The notes under the pieces were generated by a model. The model searched no databases and was not told where the DNA came from. It saw only the letters and a list, made by a program, of their open reading frames with translations. A program made the translations under genes and the position numbers. A stretch of DNA of 64,000 nucleotides from Candidatus Eremiobacter antarcticus (lineage in GTDB: Bacteria > Vulcanimicrobiota > Vulcanimicrobiia > Eremiobacterales > Eremiobacteraceae), in contig QHBK01000006.1 of NCBI GenBank assembly GCA_003244105.1, positions 62,001 through 126,000 of the forward strand, read 5' to 3'. Positions 43,634 to 53,909 of the stretch are shown here, piece by piece (position 1 is the stretch's first letter; each line of letters starts with the position of its first letter).

Positions 43634-45208
43634 ATGGCCACGATAGTGAAAGAGCCGGGCCAGTTCAGCAACGAGCCCATCAAGCCGTTTTCCGACCCCC
43701 AAGAGCGGTCCGGCTTGGCCCAAGCGATCGCGAAACTGCGCGGCGACCCGCGCACATGGGACCTTGTGATTGGCGGCCGGCGCGTAAAGGCGCGAACGCA
43801 GTTCAGCTCCATCAACCCTGCCAAGCCGGCAGACACCGTCGGCATGATGCAATCGGCGTCCGGCGAGCAAGCGCTCGAAGCCATCGGTGCGGCCGAGAAA
43901 TCCTTTCCGGCATGGTCGCGGGTGCCAGCCCAACAGCGGGCGGAGCTGCTGTTCGCCGTTGCGGACAAGGTCAGACAACGGCGAGACGAGCTTGATGCGC
44001 TGCTCGTGCTCGAGGTCGGCAAGCCCTGGGTCGAGGCAGACGGCGATGTGGCCGAAGGCATCGACTTTCTCGAGTACTACGGTCGCGAGATGCTGCGGTT
44101 CGCAGGACGGCGCGAAGTGACGCCTGTGCCGGGTGAAGACAACGAGATGCATTATCTGCCGCTGGGTGTGGGCGTCGTCATCCCGCCTTGGAATTTCGCG
44201 TTTGCGATCATGGTGGGGATGACATCAGCCGCCATCGTCGCCGGCAACACGGTCGTCTTGAAGCCGTCGAGCGACTCTCCCGTCATCGCGGCGCGCTTCG
44301 TGGAGATGCTGGAGGAATGCGGTCTTCCACCGGGCGTGGTCAACCTCATCACCGGTTCGGGCGGCTCCATCGGTGACGCGCTCGTCAAGGATGCGCGCGT
44401 GCGATTCGTCTCATTCACCGGCAGCAAAGAAGTGGGGCTGCGCATCAACCGGCTGGCCGCGGATCCAGAGCCAGGACAGCTGTGGATCAAGCGAGTGGTG
44501 GCCGAGATGGGCGGCAAAGACGCGATCGTGGTCGCCGCGGACGCGGACCTGCCGGCTGCCGTTGAAGCGGTCGCCGTCTCTGCATTCGGCTTCAGCGGCC
44601 AGAAGTGCTCGGCGTGCTCGCGCGCGATCGTGGAGGCGCCGGTCTACGACGAATTCGTAGAGCGCTTGGCACAGCGCGTCGACGCGATCACCATCGGCGA
44701 TCCGGCCGACCCGAAGACTGCCATGGGGCCCGTCATCAACGAGCGCTCGCGCGACAAGATCGAGCAATACATCCGAACCGGCAAGGATGAGGGAAAGCTG
44801 CTGACCGGCGGCGAGCGTGCGAGCGACGACGGTTATTTTCTGGAACCGACCGTCTTCATCGATGTGGCTCCGCGGGCGGTGATCGCTCAGGAAGAGATTT
44901 TCGGACCCGTGTTGGCGGTGATCAAGGCGAAGAACTACGAGGAAGGGCTGGCCTTCGCAAACGATAGCGAGTTCGGCCTGACCGGCAGCGTCTTCTCGAC
45001 CGACCGCTCCAAGTTGGAGCGGGCCCGCGCCGAGTTTCTCGTCGGCAACCTGTACCTGAACAGGAAGTGCACCGGCGCGCTCGTGGGAGCGCATCCGTTC
45101 GGTGGTTTCAAGATGTCGGGCACTGATTCCAAGGCGGGCGGCCCCGACTATCTGCTGCTGTTCTTGCAGGCCAAGTCCGTGAGCGAGAAGATTGCAGCCC
45201 GCGGTTGA
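43634..45208 (+). CDS. 1-pyrroline-5-carboxylate dehydrogenase (RocA-like aldehyde dehydrogenase)
   Basis: 524 aa, the length of stand-alone P5C dehydrogenases that oxidise glutamate semialdehyde to glutamate. The N-terminal extension (NEPIKPFSDPQERSGLAQAI) is typical of the RocA group. GVGVVIPPWNFAFAIMVGM, LKPSSDSPVIAARF, the general-base Glu in VAEMGGKDAIVV and the catalytic Cys in FSGQKCSACSRAIV are all present. It works in proline or arginine breakdown. No proline dehydrogenase gene is adjacent. Confidence 0.92.
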   Translation: MATIVKEPGQFSNEPIKPFSDPQERSGLAQAIAKLRGDPRTWDLVIGGRRVKARTQFSSINPAKPADTVGMMQSASGEQALEAIGAAEKSFPAWSRVPAQQRAELLFAVADKVRQRRDELDALLVLEVGKPWVEADGDVAEGIDFLEYYGREMLRFAGRREVTPVPGEDNEMHYLPLGVGVVIPPWNFAFAIMVGMTSAAIVAGNTVVLKPSSDSPVIAARFVEMLEECGLPPGVVNLITGSGGSIGDALVKDARVRFVSFTGSKEVGLRINRLAADPEPGQLWIKRVVAEMGGKDAIVVAADADLPAAVEAVAVSAFGFSGQKCSACSRAIVEAPVYDEFVERLAQRVDAITIGDPADPKTAMGPVINERSRDKIEQYIRTGKDEGKLLTGGERASDDGYFLEPTVFIDVAPRAVIAQEEIFGPVLAVIKAKNYEEGLAFANDSEFGLTGSVFSTDRSKLERARAEFLVGNLYLNRKCTGALVGAHPFGGFKMSGTDSKAGGPDYLLLFLQAKSVSEKIAARG

Positions 45209-45239
45209 TGTCGGCGCGGCAGCGCCGCCGCGGGAGCCT

Positions 45240-45722
45240 ATGACTGCGGCGCGACGGGGTATGGTCGCGATATCGCTCGTATTGGCTTTGCTCGTTATTT
45301 GGACGCTATTGGGGCTTGCGGGGGTCGCACCGCTGCCGCGTTCCATCGCGGCGCTCGCCGACGCCAATAAGCCGGGTCATGGCAGGGCGCTGGTGTTTGG
45401 TTATTACATCGCCCAGCCGTTCATGTCGCTGGGCGGCGCTTCGCTTCCGCCGTACGCGTTTGCGGGGAGCACAGAAGCAGGTGCCGCATCGGTGCGCGTG
45501 TCGCCGACGCTGGGGGACCTGCGCGCCGGACGGGTCGCCGGCATCATCGACACTGCAACGGGAGACGGGACGCGCTGGTCCCCATACGTCATACACACGG
45601 TATCGAGCTTCAATAATTTCATCAGCGCGCTCGTCACCGGAGCGCTCATCCTCTTCGCTCTGGCCTGGTGGCTAGCCGGCCTGCTGTCGGCGCGCTTCAG
45701 CGCGGCCCAAACCCGAGGCTAG
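45240..45722 (+). CDS. membrane protein of unknown function
   Basis: 160 aa from ATG 45240, with CGGGAG just upstream; the frame opens at 45192 inside the dehydrogenase gene. Two membrane helices flank an outside domain: MVAISLVLALLVIWTLLGLAG near the N-terminus and ALVTGALILFALAWWLAGLL near the C-terminus. The middle (RVSPTLGDLRAGRVAGIIDTATG) is not recognised. Confidence 0.65.
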   Translation: MTAARRGMVAISLVLALLVIWTLLGLAGVAPLPRSIAALADANKPGHGRALVFGYYIAQPFMSLGGASLPPYAFAGSTEAGAASVRVSPTLGDLRAGRVAGIIDTATGDGTRWSPYVIHTVSSFNNFISALVTGALILFALAWWLAGLLSARFSAAQTRG

Positions 45723-46245: not shown

Positions 46246-46920
46246 GTGGCGCGCGAGCTGATGGACGACGACGAGTCGTCGGGCTCCCAGCAGGAATGGA
46301 CCGAAAGCTTTCGCGACCTCGCTCGCGTCAATCGCTACTTGGGCGGCTGGAATGCCTTGCGTGATGCCGTCGCTCGGTTGCCGCGCCTGCCGGATCATTT
46401 TCTTGATGTGGGAGCCGGCGACTGCGACATGGCGCTGCGTCTGCTCGTCTACCTGAAAAGGCGCGGCATCGCGGCCCGCGGCGTGGCGCTCGACCGTTCA
46501 GCGCAGATCTTGTCCATCGCGGCGCAGCGCTTGGGGTCAGCGGCCGATGTCGTGTTGGTCCGGGGCGACGCTCGCTCGTTGCCTTTTGCGGAGGCGAGCT
46601 TCGACCTGGCGATGCTCAACCTTTCGCTCCACCATTTTGAACCCGCCGACGCCGTGATCGTCCTTCGTGAATTGGCGCGCGTGTCAACCACAGCCGTGGT
46701 CAACGATTTGCGGCGCAGTCTGGTGGCATACGCCTTTGCGCGGTTTGCATTCCCGCTGTTCACGCACAGCCGCTTGACGCGCAACGATGGGCCCGTCTCC
46801 GTCATGAGGTCGTATACGCCGCGGGAAGCGCACGAGCTGGCGCGCGCGGCCGGCTGGCAGCGCATCGAAGTGCGCACGCATTTCGGCTATCGCATGACGC
46901 TCTGCGGTGGGCGCGCATGA
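46246..46920 (+). CDS. class I SAM-dependent methyltransferase
   Basis: 224 aa from GTG 46246; ATG 46261 is an alternative. The SAM-binding motif I is FLDVGAGDCDMALRLL, motif II includes VRGDARSLPFAEASFDLAML, and LSLHHFEPADAVIVLRELAR follows, a pattern shared with UbiE/menaquinone-type and small-molecule O-methyltransferases. It starts a four-gene operon with an FAD oxidoreductase, an SRPBCC protein and a ketosynthase, with four-base overlap to the next gene. A role in tailoring a polyketide- or quinone-like product is inferred. Confidence 0.85.
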   Translation: MARELMDDDESSGSQQEWTESFRDLARVNRYLGGWNALRDAVARLPRLPDHFLDVGAGDCDMALRLLVYLKRRGIAARGVALDRSAQILSIAAQRLGSAADVVLVRGDARSLPFAEASFDLAMLNLSLHHFEPADAVIVLRELARVSTTAVVNDLRRSLVAYAFARFAFPLFTHSRLTRNDGPVSVMRSYTPREAHELARAAGWQRIEVRTHFGYRMTLCGGRA

Positions 46921-48101
46921 CGGACGTCGCCATCGTCGGCGCTGGGCCGGCCGGCACGAGCCTTGCGCTGCAGCTCGCCCGCTCCGGCTGCGACGTGACG
47001 ATCCTTGAGCGCCGAGTCTTTCCGAGGACGAAGGTTTGCGGCGAATACCTCGCGGGCGGCGCTCGCAGCGCGCTTTCGGACTTGTCGATCGAAGATCGAG
47101 CGTTGCGGGGAGCGCATCCCATCCGCAGTATCTCTCTCTCGGCCTTCGGTTCGGAACCGGTGCGGCTGCGTTTGCCCAGCCCGGGCGCCGTATCGTTGGA
47201 ACGAGCCGTGCTGGACAGCCGCCTGCTTGAAGCGGCCCTGGCCGCCGGAGCGAGCTTGAAACAGGGCTCGTTCATGCGCAGCAGCGAGCGGAGCCTCAGC
47301 AACCGCGCACGCAAGACCGGCCGGTCGAGCAGCAACGGCCTGGTCGACGTCGTTTATCGCGATGAGCATGGCGCCGAGCGTTCGCTCAGCGCTCGTGTTT
47401 TGGTAGGAGCCGATGGAGCGTGGTCGGCAGTGGCGCAACGCAATGGCATGGCCAAGCCAGGCGCGGGCGGCCGTTGGGCCGTCGGCGGCCATCTCGAGGG
47501 CCAGACTGACAGCGACGAATTGGAGATGTACGTGGGCCCGGGCGGTTACTACGCGCGCAATCCCCTCAGCGCCACGGTGGTCAACTCCATGCTCGTGTTG
47601 CCGCGGCCCGCTCAAGCGAGCGAAGCTGAAGCCGCAGTCGCGACGATCACGAGCGGCAGACGGCGCTTTGAAGCGGATGCGCTGCAGCGGCGGGTCGCAA
47701 TCGGCCCCCTGCGCTATGCCGCGGAGCATCTTTGCGCCCGGCGCACGATACTGACCGGGGATGCCGCCGGTCTGCTCGATCCATTCACGGGCCAAGGCGT
47801 CTCGTGCGCGCTGCGGCTGTCATTTTCGGCGGCTGAAACGATCGCGGGCTTATTGGCCGGAGGGCGGCCCGAACGACTAGCGGCGCGCTATGCCGCCGAG
47901 TGGCGACGCGCCGTGGGCATGCGCAAGGTGCTGTCTTTTCTCATCGATGCGCTGATGCGAAACGGAGCGTTGCGGAGACGCGCGCACGCGAAGGTGCGAC
48001 AGGATCCGTCGATCGCCGAGGCGATGCTGGCCGCGATCAGCGGGTACGCACCGATTGGGGCCGCGCTCTCTCCCGGGCTTTTGTGGCGGCTGCTCGCGTG
48101 A
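46917..48101 (+). CDS. FAD-dependent oxidoreductase (geranylgeranyl-reductase/PHBH-like)
   Basis: 394 aa. The FAD-binding motif is VAIVGAGPAGTSLALQLARS; RRVFPRTKVCGEYLAGG follows, as in geranylgeranyl reductase and flavin halogenase-type enzymes. ARVLVGADGAWSAVAQ and ILTGDAAGLLDPFTGQGVS are the GD and C-terminal flavin motifs. No halogenase WxWxIP motif is visible, so hydroxylation or reduction is more likely. It sits between the methyltransferase (ATGA overlap) and the SRPBCC gene (GTGA overlap). Confidence 0.87.
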   Translation: MTDVAIVGAGPAGTSLALQLARSGCDVTILERRVFPRTKVCGEYLAGGARSALSDLSIEDRALRGAHPIRSISLSAFGSEPVRLRLPSPGAVSLERAVLDSRLLEAALAAGASLKQGSFMRSSERSLSNRARKTGRSSSNGLVDVVYRDEHGAERSLSARVLVGADGAWSAVAQRNGMAKPGAGGRWAVGGHLEGQTDSDELEMYVGPGGYYARNPLSATVVNSMLVLPRPAQASEAEAAVATITSGRRRFEADALQRRVAIGPLRYAAEHLCARRTILTGDAAGLLDPFTGQGVSCALRLSFSAAETIAGLLAGGRPERLAARYAAEWRRAVGMRKVLSFLIDALMRNGALRRRAHAKVRQDPSIAEAMLAAISGYAPIGAALSPGLLWRLLA

Positions 48102-48574
48102 GCCATGCGGATCAGTCGGTCGACATGGCCGCGCCTGCCGCGACGATCTACGCCTTGGCCCAAGACGTCGCCAGCTGGCCGCGGTTCCTCCCGCATTATC
48201 GCTATGTCCGCGTCCTGCAAGAGACGCCAGACGAGCGCATCGCCGTGATGGGGGCGAGGCGCAGTTGGATTCCGGTGCGTTGGACCGCGCGCGAGCGGTT
48301 GCATCCCGCCATACCGCGCATTGAGTTCATCCATCTATCCGGCTGGACCGTAGGAATGGAAGTGGCTTGGACCTTTGCGCCGACACCCGGAGGTACGCGG
48401 GTGACGATCGAGCACGATTTGCGCACGTTGCGCCGGCCGGTCAGTCGCACGCGGCTCGCGCGGGCGATCATCGCAAGGTTTTTCATCCGGCCTATCGCAA
48501 CCCGTACGCTCGCCCGCATGAAGGCGCTCGCGGAGCAGCTGGCTTCCAACACGAAAGAGCCGCATGAGCAGTAA
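48098..48574 (+). CDS. SRPBCC-family protein (cyclase-like)
   Basis: 158 aa from GTG 48098, which overlaps the preceding stop; the longer frame from 47900 lies inside the oxidoreductase gene. SVDMAAPAATIYALAQDVAS and WPRFLPHYRYVRVL form the START-like N-terminus, and GMEVAWTFAPTPGGTRVTIE the central sheet. Aromatic polyketide cyclases and COQ10-type quinone carriers share this fold. Its place before a ketosynthase favours a cyclase-type role. Confidence 0.82.
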   Translation: MSHADQSVDMAAPAATIYALAQDVASWPRFLPHYRYVRVLQETPDERIAVMGARRSWIPVRWTARERLHPAIPRIEFIHLSGWTVGMEVAWTFAPTPGGTRVTIEHDLRTLRRPVSRTRLARAIIARFFIRPIATRTLARMKALAEQLASNTKEPHEQ

Positions 48575-49796
48575 AGTATTCATCACTGGCATCGGCGCCT
48601 TGACCCCCATTGGGATCGGACGCCCGAGCCTGTGGAACGGCGCGCTTGCGGGGAAGAGGTCCGTGCAGGCGGTCGATCGCTTCGATACAAGCTCGTTCCG
48701 CTCTCGGGTGGCGGGCCAGGTGAACGGCTTCGACGCCGCGCCGTTTCTCGGCCGCAAGGAAACGCAGCGGACGGAACGGTTCAGTCAGTTCTCCATCGCG
48801 GCCGCTCAAATGGCGTTCGATGATGCTGAATACGCCCCGCGCAGCGGGGACGCCGACTTTGGAATTTGGATCGGCAGCGCTCTGGGCGGCGTGGTGTATG
48901 CGGAACAGCAATACGACATCTACGCGAAGCGGGGACTGCGAGCCGTCCATCCGATGCTGGCCTTGAGCGTCTTCGGCGCGGCCTCGTGCTGCAACGTCGC
49001 CATCCACTTCGGCCTTCATGGCCCGACGGTGTCGAATTCCAATTCTTGCGCGGCCGGCGCGGTCGCAATCGGCGATGCCTTTCGCGCGGTCCGCGACGGC
49101 GTGTGCAAAGCCGCGCTCGCCGGCGGCGTTGAGGCGCCGCTCGCTCCACTGACGTTCGGCGCGTTCGATATCATCCGATCGATGTCGACTCGCAATGACG
49201 ACCCGGCGGGCGCAAGCCGGCCCTTCGATGCTCATCGCGATGGCTTCGTGATGGCCGAAGCCGCGTGCTTGCTCTTGTTGGAGCGGGAAGAAGACGTCGT
49301 CGAGCGAGGCGTGACGCCCTACGCAGAGATCGCGGGCTACGGCCTGACGAACGACGGCCAGCACATGACCGCGCCGCGCCAAGATGGCCGCGAGGCGGCG
49401 CGCGCGATGTCGAAGGCCCTACGCGAAGCGCAAGCCGACCCGACGGAACTGGATCACATCAACTCGCACGGGTCATCGACGCCGCTCAACGATCCGACCG
49501 AAAGCAAGGCTATACGCTCCGTCGCGGGTACGCACAGCGATCGCATCCTCATCTCGGCCATCAAAGGCATGATGGGGCACGCGCTCGGCGCGACCGGTGC
49601 GGTGGAAGCGGCGCTGTGCGCCCTCAGCATCAAGGAGAGCATGGTCGTTCCGACGGTCAATCTGGAACAGCCCGGAGACGGGTGCGACCTGACCTATGCG
49701 CCTCCGCGGGCGACTCCATTGCGACAGCGCCTCGTGATGTCCAACAGCTTTGGTTTTGGCGGGCTCAACGCGGCGCTCGTCTTCCGCGCGGCCTGA
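48564..49796 (+). CDS. beta-ketoacyl-ACP synthase, FabF/KAS II type
   Basis: 410 aa thiolase-fold enzyme. The Cys-His-His triad is visible: nucleophile in NSNSCAAGAVAIGDA (the usual TAC is SC here), His in LDHINSHGSSTPLNDPTE, and His in IKGMMGHALGATGAVEAALC. The N-terminus (KVFITGIGALTPIGIGRPSLWNG) and C-terminal SNSFGFGGLNAALVF are standard. It overlaps the SRPBCC gene by 11 bases. No acyl carrier protein, ketoreductase or chain-length factor lies nearby, so it more likely makes a specialised product than membrane fatty acid. Confidence 0.88.
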   Translation: MSSKVFITGIGALTPIGIGRPSLWNGALAGKRSVQAVDRFDTSSFRSRVAGQVNGFDAAPFLGRKETQRTERFSQFSIAAAQMAFDDAEYAPRSGDADFGIWIGSALGGVVYAEQQYDIYAKRGLRAVHPMLALSVFGAASCCNVAIHFGLHGPTVSNSNSCAAGAVAIGDAFRAVRDGVCKAALAGGVEAPLAPLTFGAFDIIRSMSTRNDDPAGASRPFDAHRDGFVMAEAACLLLLEREEDVVERGVTPYAEIAGYGLTNDGQHMTAPRQDGREAARAMSKALREAQADPTELDHINSHGSSTPLNDPTESKAIRSVAGTHSDRILISAIKGMMGHALGATGAVEAALCALSIKESMVVPTVNLEQPGDGCDLTYAPPRATPLRQRLVMSNSFGFGGLNAALVFRAA

Positions 49797-49845: not shown

Positions 49846-51231
49846 TCAGGCGCCTAGCTGCGCCCCATGGAGGACAAAAGTCGGTATGGCCTGGCCTCCC
49901 TTTGAGACGTTGATCACCTGCGACTGCGACAGCCTCGTCAGAACGCCGCCCAGCCTGCCGCGAAATACATAAGCATTGCAATCCTCGATCAATGTCTGCA
50001 GCGAGACTCCGGCGGCCGGCTTCGCGAGGTCGAAGACAGGGTAGGTGCCCATGCGCGGCGCAACGCGCTCCTGCACGACGAAGCCGTTGCGCATGCCGGC
50101 TGCGCTCGCGGCGAGCCAGGTTTCAGCATCGACATCCCATCCGAGCACGATGCCGTCACCGCCATGAGCGTCGTTCGGCTTGAGAAGCAGCTCATTTTGC
50201 GCACGGGCCGCCCCGTCGCTGCCCGCAAAACTGTCGGCGGCCCATGTAGCCGGCACGAGCGTTTCAATGGCACGCCGTTGGTCCGCGGAAAACCAGCCCG
50301 CCCGCGCCGGATCCTTGAGGATCGCAAGTGCTTTCTTCTTATGAGCGATCGTGCACCGAAAAGAGCTGGCCACGCAAACCGCGCCGTCCGCATACGCGCG
50401 GATGAGCGGATGCCGCAGATCGAAATGCGCGAGGAAATCAGCGACAAGCAATCGTTTGTAGACGAGATCGATGCGCTTGCCAAAGGCGCTCAGCTCGCCT
50501 GACTGATAGCGCAGATCTTCAGGCGCTGCGATGAAGGCGGGTATGTCGTGCGCTTGCAGATCTCTGACGACCAGTTCGAACTCGGGACCGGTGGCGGCGT
50601 CCGAGAGATCGACGACCGCGATGGTCGGAACGCTGCTCGGCTCATCCGCGTTCGCGCGGTCGCGGCGCCTTGCATCCGCGAATTCGTGCCACACACCGAG
50701 CAGCGTTGTGCGCAGTGACCTGTCCGCGTGCATCTCCTCGAGCCGGTATTCTTGGCAAAAACGCGCGAAGGCCGGCGTCTGTCTCATCAGCGCCGCCTGG
50801 CCGGCTTGATAGGAGATGCCGGCCGGACTATCGGCATTGTATTCCAAGACCCGCGGCCGTTCGCGGAAGTACGTGTCCAAGCGAGAGACCACGGTCGCGT
50901 CGTTGTATCCGGGTTCGACCGCGGCCAGCAGCCGTTCTTGGGCGCTCAGGCCCAACGCCGATGCCAACGAGGCATCGCGCAGCGCGCGCTCCTCGATCTG
51001 GCGGAACGCCTGCCATAAGAGCTCGACCGCGCGCTCGAGCTCGCGCAAGCGCTCGGCCGTCAAGAGAGCCGGACGCAAGGAACGGCATTGCACGACGCCG
51101 CCGAAGGTCAGCTTGGCATCAAGCTGAGCCTGCACGAAATCCTGGACGACGCTCGGTCCGGCTAGAGACGGATCCGCGCAGAGCTCGTGATAGCGGTCGA
51201 TCGCGCGCGCGAGAAATGCGTCATCGCGCAT
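49846..51231 (-). CDS. circularly permuted ATP-grasp-like ligase coupled to EgtB
   Basis: 461 aa. VLEYNADSPAGISYQAGQAAL, IDLVYKRLLVADFLAHFDL, CTIAHKKKALAIL and LLLKPNDAHGGDGIVLGWDVD match proteins described as circularly permuted ATP-grasp or glutathionylspermidine-synthase-like, which form amide bonds through an acyl phosphate. Its start overlaps the end of the EgtB-like gene by 11 bases, so the two are translationally linked. Divergent is a glutamate-cysteine ligase. Together they suggest a thiol-histidine product with an extra ligation step. The reaction itself is unknown. Confidence 0.75.
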   Translation of the reverse strand: MRDDAFLARAIDRYHELCADPSLAGPSVVQDFVQAQLDAKLTFGGVVQCRSLRPALLTAERLRELERAVELLWQAFRQIEERALRDASLASALGLSAQERLLAAVEPGYNDATVVSRLDTYFRERPRVLEYNADSPAGISYQAGQAALMRQTPAFARFCQEYRLEEMHADRSLRTTLLGVWHEFADARRRDRANADEPSSVPTIAVVDLSDAATGPEFELVVRDLQAHDIPAFIAAPEDLRYQSGELSAFGKRIDLVYKRLLVADFLAHFDLRHPLIRAYADGAVCVASSFRCTIAHKKKALAILKDPARAGWFSADQRRAIETLVPATWAADSFAGSDGAARAQNELLLKPNDAHGGDGIVLGWDVDAETWLAASAAGMRNGFVVQERVAPRMGTYPVFDLAKPAAGVSLQTLIEDCNAYVFRGRLGGVLTRLSQSQVINVSKGGQAIPTFVLHGAQLGA

Positions 51232-52531
51232 CGCGCGCGCAGCGCATGCCGATCAGCGCGGCTCGGAAGTTGCGGCGGTAGAAATTGCGGAAGGTCGTGC
51301 GCAAGAGACCGGTGGCGCTGAACCAAGAGCCTCCGCGCGAGACGCGATGATCGCCGTCGAACCAGGCCTCCGAATATTCGGGATACGGATATGCCGCGAA
51401 CCCCGGATAGCCTGCGAAGGGCGAGGCCGTCCATTCCCACAGGTTGCCGGCCGCGTCGTGAAGCCCGAGCGCGCTTGTGCCGCCTTGATACGTCCCTACC
51501 GGCGCGGTCGACCACAGGACGTTGTTCGCGTTGGCATCGGGCACGGCTCCGTCGTCCTCATGGTCTTCGCCCCACGGGAAGGGGCGCATGAGCCGGGCGT
51601 TTGGGTCCCAAGCCGCCGCCGCTTCCCACTCGAATTCGGTCGGCAGACGTTTGCTGCGGAAGCGCGCATAAGCGTCGGCCTCATACCATGAAATACCGCT
51701 GACTGGCGCGTCGTCGCGCAATGTGACCTCTTGGAAAAACCCGTGCTCTTTCCAAGGGGGGCCGACCCAATACAGGGGCTTGTCAACGGCCGCTGACTCC
51801 TTCCAAGCCCAGCCCTCGTCGTTCCAAAACCGGCGCTCGCGGTAGCCGCCCGCCTCGATGAACTCGGCGTACTCCGCGTTCGTGGTGAGATCGCGGTCGA
51901 GGAAAAAAGCTGACAGCTCATGTTCGTGCTGCGGCAGTTCGTTGTCGTATACGAACCGCGTCCTCGTTCCACCGATGGGTACACGCAAAGCGGGTATATG
52001 TATCTCCTGCGACGGTGCACGGCGCGTGCCGGACAGCGGCGGCGGTCCTGCCCTTTTGCTTTCGTACGGCAGCGCGGCGAAGAGAAAGGCGATGGTTTCT
52101 TGGTGCTGACGCTCGTGTTCCAAGACCAGCTCGACCGCGTATTGCATATCGATCGCGCCTTCGCGCCGCGCGCTTTGGTCAGCGACGCCGCTCTCGAGCA
52201 GCTCTTGGACGCGCGAAAGCGTCGCTTGCAGGTACGCTTCCATCTCGGCGCGAGCCGGCAACCGGCGTGCCTCTTCACGGGGAGTCTTCATGGGATCGAA
52301 ATGCACGTCGTAGGTCGGGTTCAAGCTGGGCATGCCGGCTGCGCGTTGGATGATCCAATAATTTTGAAAGACGCCGATGTGGGCGAGATGCCACAGGATG
52401 GGGCGGAAGCCGGGCATGGGCTCCCTCTGCACGCTGTCCTCGGAGGTGGCCAAGTCCAAAAGCTGAAGCGTCTGGGCTCGCAGCAAGGTCAGTCTGGTGA
52501 GCTGCTGTGATGGCGGCGTCTGAGTCTTCAT
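51221..52531 (-). CDS. egtB: EgtB-like sulfoxide synthase (ergothioneine biosynthesis type)
   Basis: 436 aa. The N-terminal DinB-like domain carries the iron triad: His51 in LWHLAHIGVF, and His139 and His143 in LEHERQHQETIAFL. The C-terminal FGE-sulfatase domain has VSGISWYEADAYARF, KRLPTEFEWEAAAAW, GNLWEWTASPFAGY and VSRGGSWFSATGLLRTTFRN. EgtB couples a cysteine thiol donor to trimethyl-histidine with oxygen. The RNFYRRNFRAALIGMR end differs from the WDYPIRR-like end I associate with mycobacterial EgtB, so donor choice may differ. No EgtD methyltransferase is in the window. Confidence 0.87.
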   Translation of the reverse strand: MKTQTPPSQQLTRLTLLRAQTLQLLDLATSEDSVQREPMPGFRPILWHLAHIGVFQNYWIIQRAAGMPSLNPTYDVHFDPMKTPREEARRLPARAEMEAYLQATLSRVQELLESGVADQSARREGAIDMQYAVELVLEHERQHQETIAFLFAALPYESKRAGPPPLSGTRRAPSQEIHIPALRVPIGGTRTRFVYDNELPQHEHELSAFFLDRDLTTNAEYAEFIEAGGYRERRFWNDEGWAWKESAAVDKPLYWVGPPWKEHGFFQEVTLRDDAPVSGISWYEADAYARFRSKRLPTEFEWEAAAAWDPNARLMRPFPWGEDHEDDGAVPDANANNVLWSTAPVGTYQGGTSALGLHDAAGNLWEWTASPFAGYPGFAAYPYPEYSEAWFDGDHRVSRGGSWFSATGLLRTTFRNFYRRNFRAALIGMRCARDAR

Positions 52532-52544
52532 CGGGGACGCTTAC

Positions 52545-53909
52545 GTGAAGCAAAAACCGATTCCTCGAAACGACGACGCCTCGCTGCGCAGCGAAGCGCA
52601 GCAGGGTGCCGCGCAGGCCACAGCGCTGCTGTCGACGCAAGTGCTCGATGCCACGACGGCCCGAGACTACTTGCGTGCAAATGCAAAGCCGCCCCACGAG
52701 TGGCGCGTCGGCCTCGAGTTTGAGGTCATCGGGTTTGATTCGCTCTCGCAACAGCGAATCGATCAGCGGCAGGTCGCCGCATTGCTGGCCGCATTTGCAC
52801 GCTGCGGCGGCGTGCCCCAGCGCGAGGGCGAACGCGTCGTGGCCATGCGCATGCCATACGGCGACATCACGCTCGAGCCAGGCGGGCAGATCGAGCTCTC
52901 TGCGTTGCCGCACCATCATCTCGCCGGCGTAGCGACGGCGCTGCACATGTTCCTGGATCAGTTGGCTGAGTTCGGGAGCGAGCTTCGCATGGAGTTCACC
53001 GCCCTTGGTTTTGATCCGCTGCGCCGCCTCGACGAGCAGTTCTGGATCGCCAAGCGGCGTTACGAGATCATGCGGCCCTACCTGCGCAGACAAGGCGGGC
53101 ACGCATGGGATATGATGACCCGCACGGCGGCGTTGCAGATCAGCGTGGACTACGGCGATGAGGAAGATATGGCGCGCAAGTACGTGCTGGGCAACCGGCT
53201 GGGTCCTATCGTCGCCGCCATGTTCGCCAACTCACCGTTCGCTGATGGACGCGTCACCGGGTTGAAGTCCACGCGCTACGCGTCGTGGCTGGATACCGAC
53301 GAACATCGCACGGGGCCCGGGTTCGGGACCTGCGAGGAAACCTTCGACCTGGACGCCTATCTGGCCGCAGTGTTGGATGTGCCGCTCCTCTTTTTGAACC
53401 GGAAAGGATCGCTGCAGGACGTCGCCGGCAAACGGCTGCGCGATATTGACGGGGCGGCCGCGCACGACTTTCCGGACCTCTTGAGCATGATCTTCACCGA
53501 GGCGCGCATCCGTCAATACGTCGAGATGCGCAGTGCCGACAGCGGCGGCTTCGAAAGCGCGCTCGCTTTGAGCGCTCTGTGGAAGGGATTGCTGTACGAT
53601 CCGGCAGCTCTACGCGCCGCGCTTCAGGCAGCCCCTCGTTTAGATCCCTCGGCCTTTCGAGCGTTGCAAATGGCCGTCGCGCGCGATGCGCTGGCAGCGG
53701 TGGCTGAAGGGGTCGCCGTTCTCGACGTCGCGCGCGAAGTGCTCGCGCTGGCGCGCGCGGGGTTGGAGCGCATCGCGCCGGATGAGGCCCAACATCTGGA
53801 CGCGCTGAGTCAGCGCGTCATTATCGACGGGTTGGCCCCAGCGGATATTCTTCTCAGAGACTCGGGCGCCGATGCCCGGCGCGCCACGCGACTGAGCCGG
53901 GTGGCATAG
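52545..53909 (+). CDS. glutamate-cysteine ligase (EgtA/GshA, GCS2-type)
   Basis: 454 aa from GTG 52545, only 13 bases from the divergent egtB start. EWRVGLEFEVIGFDS is the nucleotide/metal-binding Glu strand, ITLEPGGQIELSALPHHHL the substrate-binding core, and RYEIMRPYLRRQGGHAWDMM and TAALQISVDYGDEEDM follow as in alpha-proteobacterial/plant GCL and EgtA. It makes gamma-glutamylcysteine, the thiol donor for type I EgtB or the precursor of glutathione. No glutathione synthetase of the usual type is nearby. Confidence 0.87.
   Translation: MKQKPIPRNDDASLRSEAQQGAAQATALLSTQVLDATTARDYLRANAKPPHEWRVGLEFEVIGFDSLSQQRIDQRQVAALLAAFARCGGVPQREGERVVAMRMPYGDITLEPGGQIELSALPHHHLAGVATALHMFLDQLAEFGSELRMEFTALGFDPLRRLDEQFWIAKRRYEIMRPYLRRQGGHAWDMMTRTAALQISVDYGDEEDMARKYVLGNRLGPIVAAMFANSPFADGRVTGLKSTRYASWLDTDEHRTGPGFGTCEETFDLDAYLAAVLDVPLLFLNRKGSLQDVAGKRLRDIDGAAAHDFPDLLSMIFTEARIRQYVEMRSADSGGFESALALSALWKGLLYDPAALRAALQAAPRLDPSAFRALQMAVARDALAAVAEGVAVLDVAREVLALARAGLERIAPDEAQHLDALSQRVIIDGLAPADILLRDSGADARRATRLSRVA

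Follow-up and report, generated by a model that had tools for sequence, protein, structure and literature searches.

A conserved methyltransferase–FAD oxidoreductase–SRPBCC–ketosynthase operon in Eremiobacteria and Gemmatimonadota, a candidate variant of phenolic-lipid and quinone operons

To which class of polyketide pathway does an operon belong that encodes a methyltransferase (MT), an FAD-dependent oxidoreductase (FAD), an SRPBCC protein and a ketosynthase (KS), and what might it make? Such an operon lies on the plus strand at positions 46246-49796 of the DNA analysed here, a stretch of 64,000 nucleotides from Candidatus Eremiobacter antarcticus (the window; Table 1). The ORF coordinates and domains confirmed that the four genes are real and that they overlap by 4, 4 and 11 bases, as an initial annotation had reported. 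The start of the SRPBCC gene was set at the GTG at 48098 by the conserved protein; the mechanical ORF list instead opens this ORF at an upstream GTG, 47900. The domains and homologies of the four products support the early suggestion of a biosynthetic operon, one that would provide C-C bond formation, cyclisation, redox chemistry and methylation. The named public relatives of the window genes are Candidatus Eremiobacterota assemblies, and a contig search matched close relatives only.

Table 1. Genes of the operon and an upstream neighbour, in window positions
Feature	Position	Strand	Remark
Class I SAM methyltransferase (HidA/PkqB/SrsB-like tailoring MT)	46246..46920	+	GTG start; Pfam Methyltransf_25/11
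FAD-dependent oxidoreductase, GG-reductase-like/PHBH-fold superfamily (HidB/PkqC/SrsC-like)	46917..48101	+	PF01494
SRPBCC aromatase/cyclase-like protein	48098..48574	+	GTG start; PF03364
FabF-fold ketosynthase (KS)	48564..49796	+	PF00109/PF02801
L-glutamate gamma-semialdehyde dehydrogenase, neighbour	43634..45208	+	Upstream in most same-family genomes only

The neighbouring dehydrogenase is probably outside the pathway. On its other side, the operon is adjoined at 49846-53909 by genes for a circularly permuted ATP-grasp-like protein, an EgtB-like protein and an EgtA/glutamate-cysteine ligase-like protein, which suggests ergothioneine- or selenoneine-type synthesis. Within the four-gene cluster, we found no carrier protein, chain-length factor (CLF) or type III polyketide synthase (PKS), in agreement with the initial annotation. 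According to a search of the host genome (2.64 Mb, 95.8% complete), a type III PKS is absent from the whole genome as well. The genome encodes two full ketosynthases, the operon KS and a canonical FabF, and two more matches are weak and partial; no CLF partner was found among these full KS-type genes. Nor was a dedicated acyl carrier protein (ACP) found, the genome's single protein with a Pfam PP-binding match being encoded on another contig. The earlier proposal of an aromatic or lipid-like product built on the housekeeping ACP is rated likely.

We compared the operon KS with characterized subfamilies by profile and by phylogeny. The KS scored 447.6 bits against TIGR03150 (fabF), under the cut-off of 493.75, and 434.8 against the NCBIfam subfamily PRK07314, over the cut-off of 387. 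In maximum-likelihood trees, the operon KSs formed a clade of their own (support 100/98) with an Eremiobacteria half and a Gemmatimonadota half. This clade was separate from FabF and stood beside the KS-alpha/CLF of type II PKSs (98/96), in which KS-alpha was represented by three Streptomyces strains only, a thin sampling. The placement outside FabF and closest to KS-alpha persisted at 98/92 after CLF and two long-branched rows were removed. The catalytic Cys, both His and the Lys are intact. The nucleophile context NSNSCAAG, singled out at the outset as unusual, was read correctly, and the N/D/M-S-C pattern is specific to the KS clade. More specifically, Ser directly precedes the Cys in all 30 aligned Eremiobacteria sequences and in the Gemmatimonadota sequences for which this motif was read; this residue is Ala in the FabF rows and Gly in the three Streptomyces KS-alpha.

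The operon KS shares the fold, the Cys-His-His-Lys residues and about 40% identity with housekeeping FabF. It might accordingly serve fatty-acid synthesis as another FabF-like elongation enzyme and lie only by chance beside unrelated tailoring genes, as its PRK07314 score and its complete catalytic residues would allow. We consider this very improbable: the KS falls in a separate clade with Ser before the nucleophile, a canonical FabF is encoded elsewhere in the genome, and the gene order is kept across two phyla. The biosynthetic interpretation had been made to depend on the KS not being a housekeeping FabF and the only fabF of the genome. According to the trees and the genome search it is neither, and the objection fails because of the separate canonical FabF.

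The two genes at the start of the operon point to a known kind of pathway. The FAD protein matched TIGR02032 below its cut-off, in addition to PF01494, and its PRxKxC and GDA motifs are conserved. Halogenases were among its PDB profile matches; a halogenase assignment was rejected on the presence of a KxC(G/A) motif, which we take to be a mark of GG-reductase-like proteins. Searching the MT and FAD proteins against annotated plasmids retrieved type III PKS operons. Homologues of the pair occur in the order type III PKS-MT-FAD in Paracoccus, MT-FAD-type III PKS in Paludisphaera and KAS III-like-MT-FAD in Deinococcus, and together with a type III PKS in Sphingobium. On plasmid pLA3 of Novosphingobium pentaromativorans (L224), a type III PKS, a FabF-fold KS, a carrier protein, an FAD monooxygenase and an MT share one locus. 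Judged by these homologies, MT-FAD corresponds to the two tailoring genes in operons of the hidABC/pkqABC type (hidAB, pkqBC, srsBC), the likeness to HidA/HidB and PkqB/PkqC being drawn from homologues that adjoin type III PKS genes. In the FAD tree, KS-linked and type III-linked proteins are split by one change. The corresponding split of the MT tree needs three, indicating that the MT association was exchanged more than once or that this tree is poorly resolved.

Operons of the hidABC kind yield hierridins in cyanobacteria (PMC8086630), and the MT-oxidoreductase-type III PKS operons of Planctomycetota encode alkylresorcinol synthases with ring methylation (PMC10896814). The operon described here has the same kind of MT and FAD, in the same order and with the ring builder last, but has SRPBCC and a FabF-fold KS instead of the type III PKS. 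The actinobacterial pkqABC and srsABC operons, whose polyketide quinones are alternative respiratory carriers (PMC9927152), likewise join a ring builder to a methyltransferase and a flavin oxidoreductase. The present operon differs from these in having no type III PKS, in occurring in other phyla and in its gene order, and its quinone product is putative. The initial annotation had known of no characterised cluster with this minimal set. This held for the KS/SRPBCC half, as we found no description of an MT-FAD-SRPBCC-KS variant in the open literature, the scope of the search. It did not hold for MT-FAD, a tailoring pair already known from type III PKS operons, and the minimal set is therefore a variant of a characterised kind.

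The four-gene order proved to be widespread. It recurs in about 20 Eremiobacteria besides this one as well as in Gemmatimonadota, and finding it in two phyla is far more than chance would give. Eleven genomes of the same family have the KS at 70-79% identity, and about 20 more from the class have it at 49-57%; most of these genomes keep the MT-FAD-SRPBCC-KS order. Four same-family loci have no MT (L056, L057, L058 and L060); in three of these loci, the aldehyde dehydrogenase gene is separated from FAD by a homologue of the uncharacterised window ORF at 45192-45722. In one Eremiobacteria family, a gene for a 2[4Fe-4S]-type ferredoxin precedes the MT gene in 15 loci; an 80-aa ORF first suspected of being an ACP is a 4Fe-4S ferredoxin. 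A third family retains SRPBCC-KS only.

In Gemmatimonadota, the KS was found at 46-58% identity in about 140 of 295 genomes of one class, that of a Longimicrobiales match. MT, FAD, SRPBCC and KS occurred together in 22 of the 30 KS loci read, usually in the order FAD-flavin reductase-MT-SRPBCC-KS and otherwise as MT-FAD-SRPBCC-KS. The flavin reductase (PF01613) was present in 18 loci. MT and FAD did not adjoin the KS in the remaining eight. Some Gemmatimonadota loci contain SRPBCC-KS or KS alone, with neither MT nor FAD (L180, L183, L184, L189, L190, L204 and L207); loci of this sort are mostly upstream of a gene for a principal-type sigma factor. Ahead of the operon, upstream of FAD (L188, L191), Gemmatimonadota have a gene for a DUF92 membrane protein, and some loci also an ECF sigma factor gene and a small cysteine-containing ORF, possibly for an anti-sigma factor. 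DUF92 includes the plant phytyl-phosphate kinase VTE6, and its position here could be a hint of an isoprenoid link.

The KS is tightly paired with the SRPBCC protein. Both are present in 30 of 30 genomes from Eremiobacteria and in 137 of the 148 from Gemmatimonadota that have either; the operon-type SRPBCC is missing from five of 142 KS-bearing Gemmatimonadota genomes, three of which have a type III PKS. All but three of 61 Eremiobacteria genomes, including operon-free ones, gave an SRPBCC match, and in the operon-free genomes the match was a weaker-scoring paralogue or a fragment only. A profile of 40 SRPBCC homologues first matched BexL, WhiE-ORFVI (WhiE-VI), TcmN, ZhuI-type and other cyclases in the PDB. 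Consistent with this, the top PDB fold match of the predicted model (pLDDT 93.7) was the aromatase/cyclase ZhuI. H33, Y34, R35, H79 and H106 are invariant and are candidate polar pocket residues. By profile and predicted fold, the SRPBCC protein is closest to aromatase/cyclases, with putative catalysis.

The SRPBCC superfamily also has lipid- and quinone-binding members of the COQ10/RatA-like kind. If the operon protein were one of these and the KS modified fatty acids, the operon would tune membrane lipids and form no aromatic ring. TTHA0849-type structures among the fold matches and a weak match to NCBIfam RatA agree with such a role, which we nevertheless judge quite unlikely: aromatase/cyclases are the best matches by both profile and fold, a distinct SRPBCC paralogue with a weaker score occurs in nearly every genome, and the MT-FAD pair goes with alkylresorcinol synthases.

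A key indication of what KS and SRPBCC may do came from the Gemmatimonadota type III PKS loci. FAD lies directly upstream of the type III PKS in 21 of 30 such loci, most of which have MT before FAD. In this phylum, the MT-FAD pair is followed by either a type III PKS or SRPBCC-KS, with the ring builder immediately 3' of FAD. Because the same pair accompanies either, we infer that KS and SRPBCC are a replacement ring builder. Of the 295 genomes, four combined SRPBCC-KS with a type III PKS, 41 had the type III PKS only, 133 had the pair only and 117 had neither (p=6e-9, phylogeny ignored); eight Gemmatimonadota genomes hold a type III PKS and the KS together. In Eremiobacteria family f2, the numbers were three with both, 26 with type III PKS only, 13 with KS only and three with neither (p=3e-6, phylogeny again ignored). 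This mutual avoidance is strong but, on a tree of Eremiobacteria built from FabF, was not significant for want of enough independent changes; it is thus suggestive only.

The type III PKSs of Eremiobacteria are of a different kind. They are BpsA-like with an ICMT-like partner, and the MT-FAD pair was absent from their loci save for an FAD neighbour in one genome (G059), so that sharing of the pair was ruled out. This counts against a replacement, as do several findings noted above: the eight Gemmatimonadota KS loci with no adjoining MT and FAD, the five KS-bearing genomes that lack the SRPBCC protein, the eight genomes with a type III PKS as well as the KS, the lack of significance on the FabF tree and the four same-family loci that have no MT. 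In f2 genomes that have no KS operon (L101-L128), the type III PKS is directly followed by a conserved partner of ~166 aa with no Pfam match, which is presumably similar to the ICMT-like methyltransferase known from BpsAB systems for alkylpyrones.

The operon also resembles type II aromatic PKSs such as those of R1128 and tetracenomycin, in that its KS lies beside KS-alpha and its SRPBCC protein is like ZhuI, TcmN, WhiE-VI and BexL. It differs from these in having neither a CLF nor a cluster ACP. The operon is therefore outside both the type III PKS operons, as it has no type III PKS, and the type II PKSs, as it has no CLF or dedicated ACP; it joins the tailoring genes of the former to a reduced version of the ring-building machinery of the latter.

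The homologies, the gene order, the conserved catalytic residues and the ring-builder swap, all read from sequence, lead us to favour with moderate confidence an operon for phenolic lipids or quinones, of the hidABC/pkqABC type, whose type III PKS was replaced by a KS-alpha-like KS and an SRPBCC aromatase/cyclase. As to substrates, number of extensions, product and physiological role, we infer the following. The KS would accept a fatty acyl chain delivered by the housekeeping ACP and extend it by about three malonyl units without reduction. The SRPBCC cyclase would fold the poly-beta-keto chain into an aromatic ring, giving an alkylresorcinol or resorcylic acid, which the MT would then methylate. 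The FAD enzyme would hydroxylate or oxidise the ring with electrons that, in relatives, may come from the ferredoxin or flavin reductase. These steps would yield either a methylated phenolic lipid or a polyketide quinone in the form of an alkyl benzoquinone. Genes of the MqnA/D family (futalosine menaquinone route) occur in all 61 Eremiobacteria genomes, ruling out the operon as supplier of the only quinone; any polyketide quinone would come on top of menaquinone.

We are least sure of the repeated elongation, which the KS would have to perform without a CLF. Enzymes of the FabF fold that work as homodimers normally lengthen a chain by one unit in each cycle and, to our knowledge, known type II aromatic PKSs require a CLF; both count against the proposal. 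Alternatively, the KS may catalyze one Claisen condensation, for example of a fatty acyl-ACP with a beta-keto or enoyl thioester, after which SRPBCC closes the ring and MT and FAD tailor it. DarA/DarB, an unrelated pair, makes dialkylresorcinols by a comparable condensation and ring closure. A lone FabF-fold KS with no CLF, strictly paired with a cyclase-like protein, is what such a route would use. We nonetheless regard it as unlikely, since the KS clade lies beside the iterative KS-alpha and the enzyme replaced at the same position is the iterative type III PKS, which iteration fits better.

If KS and SRPBCC replaced the type III PKS, as we favour, one PKS class would have been exchanged for another behind an unchanged tailoring pair. 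The two proteins stand where the usual ring-building enzyme belongs, so the molecule may arise by an undescribed route. A CLF-based survey of type II PKSs lists 14 phyla, with Gemmatimonadota and Eremiobacteria not among them (PMC10132072). CLF-based type II mining and chalcone-synthase-based type III mining would both miss the operon, present though its KS is in almost half of the 295 genomes sampled in one Gemmatimonadota class. More tentatively, and with considerable doubt, KS and aromatase/cyclase acting on the fatty-acid ACP could be a CLF-free type II-like synthase that convergently took over the production of respiratory-type polyketide quinones from the type III PKS; it would be widespread in both phyla and represent a state near the root of type II aromatic PKSs. 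The operon brings two questions within reach of testing: whether a KS-alpha-like enzyme can form an aromatic polyketide without a CLF, and whether both phyla make polyketide quinones or phenolic lipids.
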